A stretch of 64,000 nt of DNA from Sabellastarte sp. h YS-2021 (lineage: Eukaryota > Annelida > Polychaeta > Sabellida > Sabellidae), in NCBI GenBank assembly GCA_964017235.1, contig OZ024935.1, positions 89,309,052 to 89,373,051 of the forward strand, written 5' to 3'. Positions 57,710 through 64,000 of this stretch are shown one piece after another. The notes beneath the pieces are model-generated. The model saw only the letters and a list, made by a program, of their open reading frames with translations. It did not search any database and had not been told where the DNA came from. Each line of letters begins with the position of its first letter. The first letter of the stretch is position 1. The position numbers and the translations under genes were made by a program.

Positions 57710-59770
57710 TCCACAACTGATTGAATTCAACCTTATTTCAGTACAATGTTCAACCATGGCTTTCAGTAACATTAGTAATACTTTATTCAATGAGAATTGG
57801 ACTAAGCCTGTACAAATTAAAAAAGAATTGTGAAAAATACTCTGATATAACATAATGATTGAATTCAACCATGTCTGTCAGGAACATTTGTAATCCTTTA
57901 TGCAGTGAGAACTGAACTAGCCAGCAAAACTTGTATGACAGAATTATGAAAAAGAGTCAGATATAACAGGAATACGTCATGATTGAATTCAACCATGTTT
58001 GTCAGTAATATTTTGTGATCCTATATGCAGTGAGAACGAAACTAGCCCGGGCAGCTTGCAGTACAGAATTATGAAAAATACTCCGATATAACAGGAATAA
58101 GGGATGATTGAATTCAACCATATCTTTTAAGAATCTTTGTGATACTTTATTCATTGAGAATTGGACTAGCCTGTTCAATTTGTAGCTCCAAATGGTGAAA
58201 AGATATTGCCATATAACAGGAATAAGCGATGATTGAATTCAACCATATTTTTCAGTAATATTTGTGATTTTTATGCAGTGAGATCTGCACAAGCCTGCAC
58301 AACTTGTAGCACAGAACTGTGAAAATACTCTGATATAACAGTAAGACATGATTGAATTCAACCATGTCTGTCAGTAATATTTGTGATTCTTTATTCAGTG
58401 AAAATTGGACTAGCCTGCACAGCTTACAGCAGAGAATTGTAAAACATACTTGGATATAACAGTAATAAGTGATGATTGAATTCAACCATCTCTTTCAGGA
58501 ATGTTTATGATCCTTTATGCAGTGAGAAGTGGATTAACCTGTGCAAATTGTAGCACAGAATTGTGAAAAATGCTCAGATATAACAGGTATAAGAGATGAT
58601 TGAATTCAACCATATTTTAACATTTGTGATCCTTTATGCAGTGAGAACTACACAAGCCTGCCCAACTTAGTGCACGGAATGATGAAAAATACTCAGATAT
58701 AACTGGAAAAGAGATGATTGAATTCAACCAAACTTTCGATTGGACTAAGTCTGCACAACTTGTAGCACAGAATTATGAAAAAATATTTTGATATAACAGG
58801 AATAAGAGATGATTGAATTCAACCATGTCTGTCACTAATATTTGCCATCCTTTATGCAGTGAAAACTGCTGTAACTTACACAACTTGTAGCACAGAATGA
58901 TGAAAAATACGTGTAAGTTATGATTGAATTCAACCATGTCTTTCAGAAACATTTGTGATGCTTTATTCAGTGAGAATTGGACTAGCCTGTGCAACTTATA
59001 GCACAGAATTATCAAAAATACTCAGATATAACAGGAATATGACATGATTGAATTCAACCATATCTTTCAGTAACATTTGTGATACTTTAGTCAGTGAAAA
59101 CTGGACTAACTTTCACAGCTTGTAGCACAGAATTATGAAAACAATATTCTTATGTAACAGTAATAAGAGTTGGTTGAATTCAATCATGGTTTTCATTAAC
59201 ATTTGTGACCCTTTATGTAGTGAGAACTGAGAAGCGAGCTAGTCTGCACAACTTGTAGCACAGAACTGTGAAAAATACTCTGATACATCAGAAACAAGAG
59301 ATGATTGAATTCAACCATGTCTGTCAGTAATATTTGTGATGTTTTATTCAGAGAGAACTGCTCAAGCCTGCACAATTTGTAGCACAGAACTATGAAAAAT
59401 ACTCCAATATAACTGGAAAAGAGGTGATTGAATTCAACCATGTCTGTCAATAATATTTGTGATCTTTTATGCAGTGAGATCTGCACAAGCCTGCAAAACT
59501 TGTAGCACAGAACTGTGAAAATACTTACATATAACAGTAAGACATGATTGAATTCAACCATGTTTGTCAGTAATATATGTGATCCTATATGCAGTGAGAA
59601 CTGAAGTAACACGGGCAACTAGCAGTAAAGAATTATGAAAAATACTCCCATATAACAGGAATAAGGGATGATTGAATTCAACCATGTCTTTCAAGAACAT
59701 TTGTGATACTTTATTCATTGAAAATTGCACTAGGCTGTGCAATTTGTAGCACAGAATTGTGAAAAGATGG
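57710..59770 (+). repeat. Tandem array, about 17 units of roughly 124 bp
   Basis: GATTGAATTCAACCATG-type anchors occur at 57856, 57981, 58106, 58231, 58350, 58474, 58598, 58716, 58811, 58922, 59046, 59172 (altered), 59303, 59426, 59546 and 59670, with another near 57719. Intervals are mostly 118-126 (range 95-139). Each unit also has TTGTGATCCTTTATGCAGTG, CTTGTAGCACAGAATT and GATATAACAGGAATAAG. Minus-strand open frames across it are a by-product of the repeat. Confidence 0.9.
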
Positions 59771-59922: not shown

Positions 59923-62752
59923 GTATCCACCGGAAGCATCCGGTGGATACTTTGGTTTAGCGTCCGCTACGCCGCCGCCGCCGCGCGTAGAGAGATTTTC
60001 GGCGTTAACGCTCTAAGAGGAAAACAACAGCAGCTAGGTTCACCAAATTTGCAGGATATCTTCATTGGGGGGTAAGCTTCTCTGGGAAGGAAAGTAGCCT
60101 CATTCTGAAAAACAAGATGGCCGCCACGGGCATTTCTTTAAAAATAATCTACATTTTTCTACTGGCTCTTCCTCATAGGTAGAAGGTTGAATCTCTTCAT
60201 AGGTGATATGTATGACACATATACATGTCCTGTACAACCTTGCACACATTTGACCTTGAAGCTCCTAATTCAAGGTCATCCACGGAGTGCCGAAGTAACC
60301 CACATAGCGGACTTTAAAAGTGCCTATATCTCCCTTATTATTGGTCCTAGAGGTTTGCAATGTGAAGCCAACCTATAGGAAATCATGTGCTGCGAATCTT
60401 CTAATGTGGTCAGATGTGACCTTGGAGCCCTCCTTCAAGGTCAAACGAGGATAGCCAAACTTATAAGTGCTTATAACTCGCTTATTATCAATCCTAGAGG
60501 TTTGGGATGGTAAACCAATATATAGAAAATCATGGGCTGGAAATCTTCTGGAGTGGTCGGATTTGACCTTGGGCCCCTCCTTCAAGGTCAAACGATGACA
60601 GCCAAACTTAAAAGTGCTTATAACTCGCTTATTATTGGTCCTAGAGGTTTGGGATGGTAAACCAACATATAGGAAATCATGGGCTGGAAATCTTGTGGTG
60701 AGGTCGGATTTGACCTTGGGCCCCTCATTCAAGGTCAAATGAGGGCAGCCAAACTTAAAAGTGCTTATAACTCGCTTATTATTGGTCCTAGAGGTTTGGG
60801 ATGGTAAACCAGCATATAGAAAATCATGGGCTGGGAATCTTCTGGTGTGGTCGGATTTGACCGTGGGCGACTCCTTCAAGGTCAAACGAGGACAGCCAAA
60901 CTTAAAAGTGCTTATAACTCGCTTATTATTGGTCCTAGAGGTTTGGGATGGTAAACCAGCATATAGAAAATCATGGGCTGGGAATCTTCTGGTGTGGTCG
61001 GATTTGACCTTGGGCCCCTCCTTCAAGGTCAAACGAGAATAGCCAAAGGTAAAAGTGCCTATAACTCGCTTATTATTGGTCATAGAGGTTTGGGATGGTA
61101 AACCAACATATAGGAAATCATGGGCTGGGAATCTTCTGGTGTGGTCGGATTTGACCTTGGGCCCCTCCTTCAAGGTCAAATGAGGACAGCCAAACTTAAA
61201 AGTCCTTATAACTCACTTATTATTGGTCCTACATGTTTGGGATGGTAAACCAACATATAGGAAATCATGCACTAGGAATCTTCTGGTGTGGTCAGATTTG
61301 ACCTTGGGCCCCTCCTTCAAGGTCAAATGAGGACAGCCAAACCTAAAAGTGCTTATAACTCGCTTATTATTGTTCCTAGAGGTTTGGGATGGTAAACCAA
61401 CCTATAGGAAATCATGTGCTGCGAATCTTCTAATGTGGTCAGATTTGACCTTGGACCCCTCCTTCAAGGTCAAACGAGGATAGCCAAACTTAAAAGTGCT
61501 TATAACTCGCTTATTATTGGTCCTAGAGGTTTGGGATGGTAAACCAGCATATAGAAAATCATGGGCTGGGAATCTTCTGGTGTGGTCGGATTTGACCGTG
61601 GGCGACTCCTTCAAGGTCAAACGAGGACAGCCAAACTTAAAAGTGCTTATAACTCGCTTATTATTGGTCCTAGAGGTTTGGGATGGTAAACCAGCATATA
61701 GAAAATCATGGGCTGGGAATCTTCTGGTGTGGTCGGATTTGACCTTGGGCCCCTCCTTCAAGGTCAAACGAGAATAGCCAAAGGTAAAAGTGCCTATAAC
61801 TCGCTTATTATTGGTCATAGAGGTTTGGGATGGTAAACCAACATATAGGAAATCATGGGCTGGGAATCTTCTGGTGTGGTCGGATTTGACCTTGGGCCCC
61901 TCCTTCAAGGTCAAATGAGGACAGCCAAACTTAAAAGTCCTTATAACTCACTTATTATTGGTCCTACATGTTTGGGATGGTAAACCAACATATAGGAAAT
62001 CATGCATTAGGAATCTTCTGGTGTGGTCGGATTTGACCTTGGGCCCCTCCTTCAAGGTCAAATGAGGACAGCCAAACCTAAAAGTGCTTATAACTCGCTT
62101 ATTATTGTTCCTAGAGGTTTGGGATGGTAAACCAACCTATAGGAAATCATGGGCTGGGAATCTTCTGGCATGATTGGATTTGACCTTGGGCCCCTCCTTC
62201 AAGGTCAAATGAGGGCAGCCAAACTTAAAAGTGCTTATAACTCGCTTATTATTGGTCCTAGAGGTTTGTCATGGTAAACCAGCATATAGAAAATCATGTG
62301 CTGGGAATCTTCTGGTGTGGTCGGATTTGACCTTGGGCCCCTCCTTCAAGGTCAAATGAGGATAGCCAAACTTAAAAGTGCTTATAGCTCGCTTATTATT
62401 GGTCCTAGAGGTTTGTCATGGTAAACCAGCATATAGAAAATCATGTGCTGGGAATCTTCTGGTGTGGTCGGATTTGACCTTGGGCCCCTCCTTCAAGGTC
62501 AAATGAGGGCAGCCAAACTTAAAAGTGCTTATAACTCGCTTATTATTGGTCCTAGAGGTTTGTCATGGTAAACCAGCATATAGAAAATCATGTGCTGGGA
62601 ATCTTCTGGTGTGGTCGGATTTGACCTTGGGCCCCTCCTTCAAGGTCAAATGAGGATAGCCAAACTTAAAAGTGCTTATAACTCGCTTATTATTGGTCCT
62701 AGAGGTTTTGGTGCATTGTCTTTACGGTGGATACAATTTGCATCGGTTCTCC
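59923..62752 (+). mobile_element. Hairpin-ended element with a 147-bp tandem core
   Basis: The left end ATTGTATCCACCG (about 59922) is inverted at the right as CGGTGGATACAAT (about 62723). The left tip forms a hairpin, TCCACCGGA-AGCA-TCCGGTGGA. It is followed by a CCG-repeat run and GTAGAGAGATTTTC, the same modules as at 10110 and 62795. The right end has a second hairpin, GCATCGG-TTCT-CCGATGC, then GCTAG, which resembles a Helitron 3' end (hairpin then CTRR). The core is the 147-bp array. The Helitron/HINE/pearl assignment is inference. Confidence 0.6.
60240..62707. repeat. 147-bp satellite array, 17 in-phase anchors, no indels
   Basis: TTATAACTCG-type anchors occur at 60324, 60471, 60618, 60765, 60912, 61059, 61206, 61353, 61500, 61647, 61794, 61941, 62088, 62235, 62382, 62529 and 62676: every interval is exactly 147. 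Each unit has TGACCTT and, 15-16 bases on, AAGGTCA. As 147 is a multiple of three, long minus-strand frames (60373-61179 and 61402-61914) appear; they are repeat by-products, with no start context or domain. Confidence 0.95.
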
Positions 62753-62785
62753 GATGCGCTAGGTCTAGTTATACATGTAAATTTT

Positions 62786-64000
62786 ATTGTGTCCCCGGAC
62801 GAAAGTCGGGGATACTTAGTATTCAGTACGGTTATGCCACCGTAGAGATTTTCTTTCGGACGCGATAACTTAAAAATATTTTAGTAAGACCTTTCAAATT
62901 TGGTATGTGGGTATATATGAGCAATGCCACGAACGCTATTGCTGGTGACCTTGACCTTCAATTTCAAGGTCACTGGTGGCTTCTTAAAGCTCAGATTTTG
63001 GCCAATTTTTCACATTTTGGCCCATTTCTCATATACAGAAAGTTAAATCATCCTATGGATGGTATATACAATACATATATATGTCCTCTGTAAGCATGCA
63101 GAAAATTGACCTTGAAGCTCTTCAATGAAGGTTATCCACAGACCGCCAAAGTACTTCACTGAGGCCATTTTTTGGCTTTTTGGAGATATTTTTATACTTA
63201 ATGCTATACTGCATGGAAACTAATGAAAAAGGCTTTGGAGGTTGAGCACATGATGGAGTACCAGCATCCAGTTTGTTGACCTTGAAGTTCCTTTCAAAAT
63301 TGGTGTAATTCCGTTTGTCCGTTTTTTTCTGTTTGTCTGTGGGTCAACATTTTGTTTCTGGACTCTTAACTCAAAAAGTCTTTGTCCAATCGAATTCAAA
63401 CTTGACAGGGAGATAGATCACCATCATAGCTAAGTTGCTATCGAAATTGGTGTAATTTCGTCTGTTCATTTGTCCGTTTGTCTATCAACAATGGGAAAAA
63501 GTATCTCAGAAACCGTAAGGTTTAGGAAGTTGATACTTGGTAGGAACATTGGTTAGGATGTGTAGGTGTGCAACATCATGGTCTGACCTTGATTTGACCA
63601 TTCACCTTGCCGTAGTGACCTTGAGTTTGAAAATCTTGTCCGGGCTATATCTCAGAAACCGTAAGGTGTAGGAAGTTGATACTTGGTAGGGACATTGGTT
63701 AGGGGTTGTAGGTGTGCAACGTCATGGTGTGACCTTGATTTGACCTTTGACCTTGTCGTAGTGACCTTGACCTATAAAATCTTGTCCGGGCTATATCACG
63801 GAAACAGTAAGGTGTAGGAAGTTGATACTTGGTAGGGACATTGGTTAGGGGGTGTAGGTGTGCAATGTCATGGTCTGACCTTGATTTGACCTTTGACCTT
63901 GCTGGAGTGACCGTGACCTATAAAATCTTGTCCGGGCTATATCTCAAAAACCATAAGATGTAGAAAGTTGATACTTGGTAGGGACATTGGATTAGGATGT
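62786..64000 (+). mobile_element. Second hairpin-headed element, truncated by the window end
   Basis: Begins with the hairpin TCCCCGGAC-GAAA-GTCGGGGA (about 62793-62814), then GTAGAGATTTTC and GGACGCGATAACTTAAAA, the same modules in the same order as the intronic element at 10108. Its leader has TGACCTTGACCTTC and TTTCAAGGTCAC. It starts within about 40 bases of the previous element's right hairpin and continues past the window. Confidence 0.6.
63480..64000. repeat. 146-bp tandem array, at least 3.5 units, open at the right
   Basis: GGAAGTTGATACTTGGTAGG occurs at 63525, 63671 and 63817, with a variant at 63963: interval 146 each time. Each unit contains several TGACCTT motifs, and the copies at 63741 and 63887 have TGACCTTTGACCT. 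Confidence 0.9.

Follow-up and report, generated by a model that had tools for sequence, protein, structure and literature searches.

The tandem array of 147-bp units studied here forms the middle part of a non-coding, dispersed element that occupies about 59923–62768 of the window, i.e., of the whole 64,000-nucleotide stretch of Sabellastarte sp. h YS-2021 DNA that we analysed. We regard it as very probable that the element is a non-autonomous Helentron (HINE), with the array as its central tandem repeat, and that the 147-bp period is inherited and need not be maintained. The features of this kind that we found are subterminal repeats at both ends, a 5′ palindrome, a 3′ hairpin, insertion at TT, a microsatellite followed by an array, and the lack of coding sequence. 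An earlier note on this DNA had described a satellite locked in length and had overlooked that this array forms the core of a transposable element. The parts of the element are listed in Table 1.

Table 1. Features of the 147-bp element and of its neighbour (positions in the window)
Feature	Position	Strand	Basis
Palindrome at the 5′ terminus (stem of 12 bp, loop of 4 bases); contains the 5′ subterminal inverted repeat GTATCCACCG next to an inverted copy of it	59923–59950	+	folding; genome matches
5′ internal flank of the element	59951–60313	+	alignment of 20 rows (19 distinct places)
GCC microsatellite in the left flank, differing in length among copies	59971–59982	+	copy alignment
Tandem array in the centre of the element: 147-bp units, 16.3 in number, free of indels	60314–62708	+	TRF; wraparound alignment
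First of two copies of a four-unit block, duplicated within the array at an offset of 5 units (735 bp)	60828–61415	+	unit-by-unit difference matrix
Second copy of that four-unit block	61563–62150	+	difference matrix; autocorrelation peak at 735
Subterminal inverted repeat on the 3′ side, CGGTGGATAC, the inverse of its 5′ counterpart	62725–62734	+	30 three-prime ends
3′ hairpin (stem of 7 bp, loop of 4 bases), stopping 11 bases short of the end	62740–62757	+	fold −8.4 kcal/mol, z −3.5
3′ end GCTAGGTCTAG (CTAG end), then TT	62758–62768	+	genome matches of hairpin plus end
Second, related non-autonomous element; its 5′ palindrome lies at 62792 and its 146-bp units start at 63502; truncated where the window ends	62789–64000 (start approximate)	+	

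For the array at 60314–62708, TRF returned a period of 147, 16.3 copies, a 92% match and 0% indels, and in a wraparound alignment with affine gaps all 15 full intervals were of 147 bp. The earlier note had counted 17 units at 60240–62707; its period and the absence of indels stand, but the array comprises 16.3 units, because bases 60240–60313 differ from the unit at 49 of 74 positions and belong to the flank. The self-identity profile peaked at multiples of 147 and was strongest at 735, the length of five units (0.906 at a lag of 147 and 0.916 at 735, with the next lags at ~0.35). Four units of the array are repeated 735 bp later with 0, 0, 0 and 2 differences. The many substitutions reported between units are therefore present as differences, but some of them are inherited unit variants.

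The contrast drawn with the other, variable arrays of the window held only for the more diverged of them. TRF rows matching at less than 90% had 2–14% indels, with the exception of one 61-bp row (87% match, 0% indels), but all rows with a period above 40 bp and a match of at least 90% (69, 50, 147 and 146 bp) had 0% indels. Arrays of variable length also show the greater divergence, so the contrast with the 147-bp array tracks divergence.

Subterminal inverted repeats were found at both ends of the element, GTATCCACCG at 59923 and CGGTGGATAC at 62725. The first 28 bases (59923–59950) form a perfect palindrome that folds as a 12-bp hairpin of −14.2 kcal/mol (z −9.0), and the GCC run at 59971 precedes the central array in the left flank, which is the order of parts in a HINE. 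When 30 three-prime ends were compared, CGGTGGATAC was exact in 21 of them and TGGTGGATAC was found in 8; the orientation of the array relative to the 3′ end was the same in 30 of 30 loci. A second subfamily (L009, L012, L013, L014, L023, L030, L031 and L035) shares the 3′ hairpin and has similar 147-bp units, but the 3′ stretch before its hairpin differs and reads TGGTGGATAC. In L012, L014, L023 and L030, one unit carries a common 66-bp deletion.

We searched the genome (1.786 Gb, 647 contigs) for the element ends, allowing up to two mismatches. The 3′ end (hairpin plus end) gave 4,019 matches and the 5′ end 3,490, against 0 for the reversed control in either case; judged from these sequence matches, the family would number roughly 4,000 copies. 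TTG was read at the 5′ junction in 58 out of 59 distinct copies, and TT at 39 out of 40 3′ junctions.

Natural empty sites were found. At three loci (L061, L062 and L064), each identical to the window at 204 of 205 upstream bases, the same host segment occurs without the element and reads TCTAATTATAC, whereas the filled site in the window reads TCTAATT-G[element]CTAG-TTATAC; the array and the ends are missing together from the empty sites. The element is present at this host segment in the window and in L059/L065 (C3:9.26 Mb). Comparison of empty and filled sites points to TT as the target; apart from T's of uncertain assignment nothing is duplicated, and the position of the breakpoint is ambiguous within the T's at the insertion site. 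The segment formed by 57855–59765 and 62769 onward, which includes a diverged 124-bp array and the second element, occurs at five places (on C3, C4, C5 and C18, and in the window on C11), two of which have the 147-bp element.

Across the repeat family, the length of 147 bp is not locked. In 50 loci (the window and L002–L050), 378 of 432 unit intervals were of 147 bp and 54 departed from it, ranging from 81 to 158 bp. Length variation in other copies, which the earlier note had itself named as evidence against a locked length, is thus found, and its statement that every interval is 147 bp without indel describes the array of the window but not the repeat in general. The proportion of 147-bp intervals was 347 of 380 among the 41 main-type loci and 31 of 52 in the nine loci of another or diverged type; the distinct kinds of departing event numbered 28 and 9, respectively. 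Some of these events are common to several copies and hence are not independent. L002–L008 had been picked by similarity to the array of the window and so favour unbroken copies, the remaining loci being the first listed on C1. A second sample, based on 5′ ends, gave 284 of 310 intervals at 147 bp, with only 147 in 35 of 54 loci. It consisted of 54 of 59 copies, after L077, L074, L045 and L089 (divergent) and L065 (sister of the window copy) had been dropped, and 17 of the 54 were also among the first 50 loci.

Changes in the size of the array were largely by whole units. For each type of end we took the first 100 listed (exact matches, all on C1) and paired 5′ with 3′ ends. Among these listed ends, 43 elements of 787–6,669 bp could be paired, and 57 of the 100 3′ ends were without a listed partner. 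The lengths of the 43 elements showed a periodicity of 147 bp (R = 0.69, p about 2e-9), 25 of them lying at most 8 bp from a whole number of units, where 5 were expected. In these 25 quantised elements the array ranged from 2.3 to about 42 units. The 18 others were off whole units, which counts against our reading; in this class indels, partial units, insertions and mispairing are lumped together.

L065, a sister copy that represents the same insertion, measures 1,669 bp, as compared to 2,845 bp in the window, a difference of 8.00 units. The two are 99.37% identical over 3,990 bp, and a second block of 2,511 bp is 96.3% identical, both without gaps; the first six full units of L065 differ from the first six of the window at 2, 0, 0, 0, 1 and 0 positions. 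Taken with the internal duplication offset by five units, this eight-unit difference implies that the unit number changes in whole units. Recent amplification through a fixed-length mechanism, one of the explanations in the earlier note, came close to this, with the amendment that whole units are gained or lost within a mobile element.

Such changes would arise by unequal exchange or replication slippage. Similar units would pair in register, so that whole 147-bp units are gained or lost and the period is left unchanged; small indels do arise in other copies, but the array of the window has none. With changes of this type, 147 bp would be a length inherited from the unit that founded the family, with no need for active maintenance. 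The constant spacing appears to reflect the copying of whole units in an array of fairly young age, with no special constraint on length.

Comparison of indels with substitutions, the check that had been proposed for the array, gave a result that differed with the yardstick. Counted per base, distinct indels did not differ between the array (24 in 44,982 bp) and the flank (15 in about 18,700 bp; p 0.22); this count leaves out L076 (15 of 39 array events, with an alignment running past the array end), one artefact at the first flank column of the window and, in the flank, the microsatellite. At these rates, the chance of finding zero indels in the 2,394-bp array is 0.28 (array rate) or 0.15 (flank rate). 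Counted per substitution, by contrast, indels were fewer in the array. The ratio of indels to substitutions was 53:983 in the array and 18:111 in the flank in the first sample, and 80:963 and 43:218 in the second sample with L076 included (odds ratio 0.42, p 4e-5). The deficit persisted when this odd locus was removed (55:905 and 37:202, odds ratio 0.33, p 4e-6), a comparison that is not like for like, as it counts deletion-type events in the array and leaves array insertions uncounted. Divergence to the nearest relative was 2.1% for array units and 1.1% for the flank, and part of the deficit per substitution may come from standing unit variation that inflates the substitutions of the array. 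The array may nonetheless have a two- to three-fold shortage of indels, which goes against a reading of simple inheritance.

This shortage is one of the observations that agree with nucleosome phasing, in which each 147-bp unit would hold one core particle and selection would remove other lengths. So does the unit length, which equals that of core DNA, and so does a rhythm in base composition: the top A/T-dinucleotide harmonic of the unit lies at 9.8 bp and was reached by 13 of 500 shuffles, and for two consensus units of the same array it was reached by 25 and 6 of 1,000. All three tests were on one array, and the scripted shuffles were first-order Markov resamples rather than exact dinucleotide shuffles. 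However, 147 bp is the core DNA without linker, and tandem nucleosomes require a linker. The 10-bp signal was not seen in the neighbour's 146-bp units (reached by 565 and 551 of 1,000 shuffles) or in the 160/169-bp array of L060 (361 and 340 of 1,000); for two 124-bp arrays the harmonic was reached by 152 and 50 of 1,000. Furthermore, unit length is not constant across copies (54 of 432 intervals depart from 147), distinct indels per base are as frequent as in the flank (p 0.22), and the oyster families described in PMC7492417 have units of 138–181 bp. Altogether, phasing appears to us a very unlikely explanation.

A constraint resembling a reading frame, which the earlier note had also put forward, did not survive scrutiny. 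The unit would then be 49 codons of a repetitive protein, and the minus strand of the array does contain stop-free stretches of 279 aa (60373–61212) and 181 aa (61402–61947). But 69 of 287 units carry a stop in the best frame, codon phase made no difference to variability (p 0.47, position permutations), and an open circular frame was present in 757 of 2,000 shuffled units. In addition, 33 of the 54 departing intervals are off 147 by non-multiples of three (146, 148, 149, 151, 158, 100, 115, 116), and a look for coding capacity in the element yielded only broken stop-to-stop stretches. On stops, codon phase and shuffles we rejected the coding frame, which has next to no probability. A classical satellite, independent of any mobile element and merely lying beside repeat ends, would accord with the internal five-unit higher-order duplication. 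Against it, paired-element lengths equal the ends plus whole units (25 of 43), each end is present thousands of times, and the empty sites lack array and ends together; a free-standing satellite, rejected on the ends, the length quantisation and the empty sites, is thus most improbable. The high copy number, the non-coding sequence and the terminal palindrome would also suit a DNA-transposon MITE that carries central repeats and is not derived from a Helentron, and some central-repeat elements were first named MITEs. Yet the inverted repeats of our element are subterminal and asymmetric, its 3′ end consists of a hairpin and CTAG, and insertion, as seen from the empty sites, was at TT with no target duplication beyond unassignable T's, so that we consider a MITE highly improbable.

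As a HINE, the element would have been moved by rolling-circle replication, with a Rep/helicase (and endonuclease) supplied by an autonomous Helentron elsewhere and recognising the 5′ palindrome and the 3′ hairpin. A genome search gave 24 Helitron_like_N matches; the end motifs of our element were absent from L051–L058, which represent 7 of these 24 matches with limited flanks.

The closest known parallel is Cg_HINE of Crassostrea gigas, which inserts at TT without target duplication and is described in PMC7492417. Both have a 5′ subterminal inverted repeat with an inverted copy, a microsatellite, central repeats in fixed orientation and a 3′ subterminal repeat followed by a palindrome, and TT insertion without target duplication is likewise common to them; the likeness is one of described structure. 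In the oyster, consensus units are of 138–181 bp and monomers vary mostly by substitution; the consensus of cluster CL6 is 147 bp (in Table 1 of that paper; the average in its text is 146). Arrays of our element can be longer, with 2.3 to ~42 units in the 25 quantised elements, against averages of no more than 5 units, and 29 at the most, in the oyster. The same source describes pearl, MgE and DTC84 of bivalves, which resemble our element in having short central arrays of repeats (repeats of ~160 bp in pearl) within dispersed elements; pearl, set beside ours by description, differs in having up to six repeats. Similarity extends to the DINE-1/HINE elements of Drosophila and a mite, as presented in PMC4067079: 5′ subTIRs (palindromic in some families), a 3′ stem-loop, central repeats, a preference for TT and a variable assignment of terminal T's. 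The distance from the 3′ subTIR to the 3′ end is 34 bp here and about 38–60 bp in the mite families. Oyster satellites that resemble Helitrons have been reported to correspond to Helitron central repeats (PMC11136912). In a limited literature search on bivalve 147 bp tandem-repeat satellite DNA, we found no report.

The second element starts ~20 bases past the end of the first, and its 5′ palindrome has 2,461 genome matches. The flanks of the two are 72.7% identical over 150 bp (E 7e-22), but a sequence comparison between the 147-bp and the 146-bp units gave no match. A related flank with an unrelated unit is the situation of oyster group 2, in which, according to PMC7492417, some families have common flanks but unrelated units. 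At L060:2490–3023, the exact 5′ palindrome of the neighbour is accompanied by 160/169-bp units rather than 146-bp ones, a combination that, from sequence comparison, suggests a swapping of central repeats.

Each type of 147-bp unit contains a 10-bp inverted pair, TTTGACCTTG / CAAGGTCAAA, which is among the 3 most conserved of the 147 rotations and above the unit average. We take TCAAGGTCA to be the extended half-site that orphan nuclear receptors, for example FTZ-F1/ERR, recognise, and TGACCTTG resembles a nuclear-receptor half-site. Outside the array we counted 16 occurrences of the latter where 3.1 were expected, 11 of them in the neighbouring element (62946–63894). The inverted pair, the ~10-bp A/T rhythm and the indel shortage could mean that the units are not passive and that the transposons spread putative receptor-binding, nucleosome-organising arrays, an idea that we hold to be very unlikely. 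A limited literature search for Helitron central repeats with nuclear-receptor half-sites retrieved no report.

The 147-bp element is a new family of an already known kind, with normal homogeneity, and what had been suspected to be a length-locked satellite is no longer an oddity. It becomes instead a well-documented HINE family: its copies run into the thousands, natural empty sites exist, and one insertion has been duplicated. The arrays of the window and L065, differing by exactly eight units, offer a clean pair for the study of array growth or shrinkage in rolling-circle transposons.
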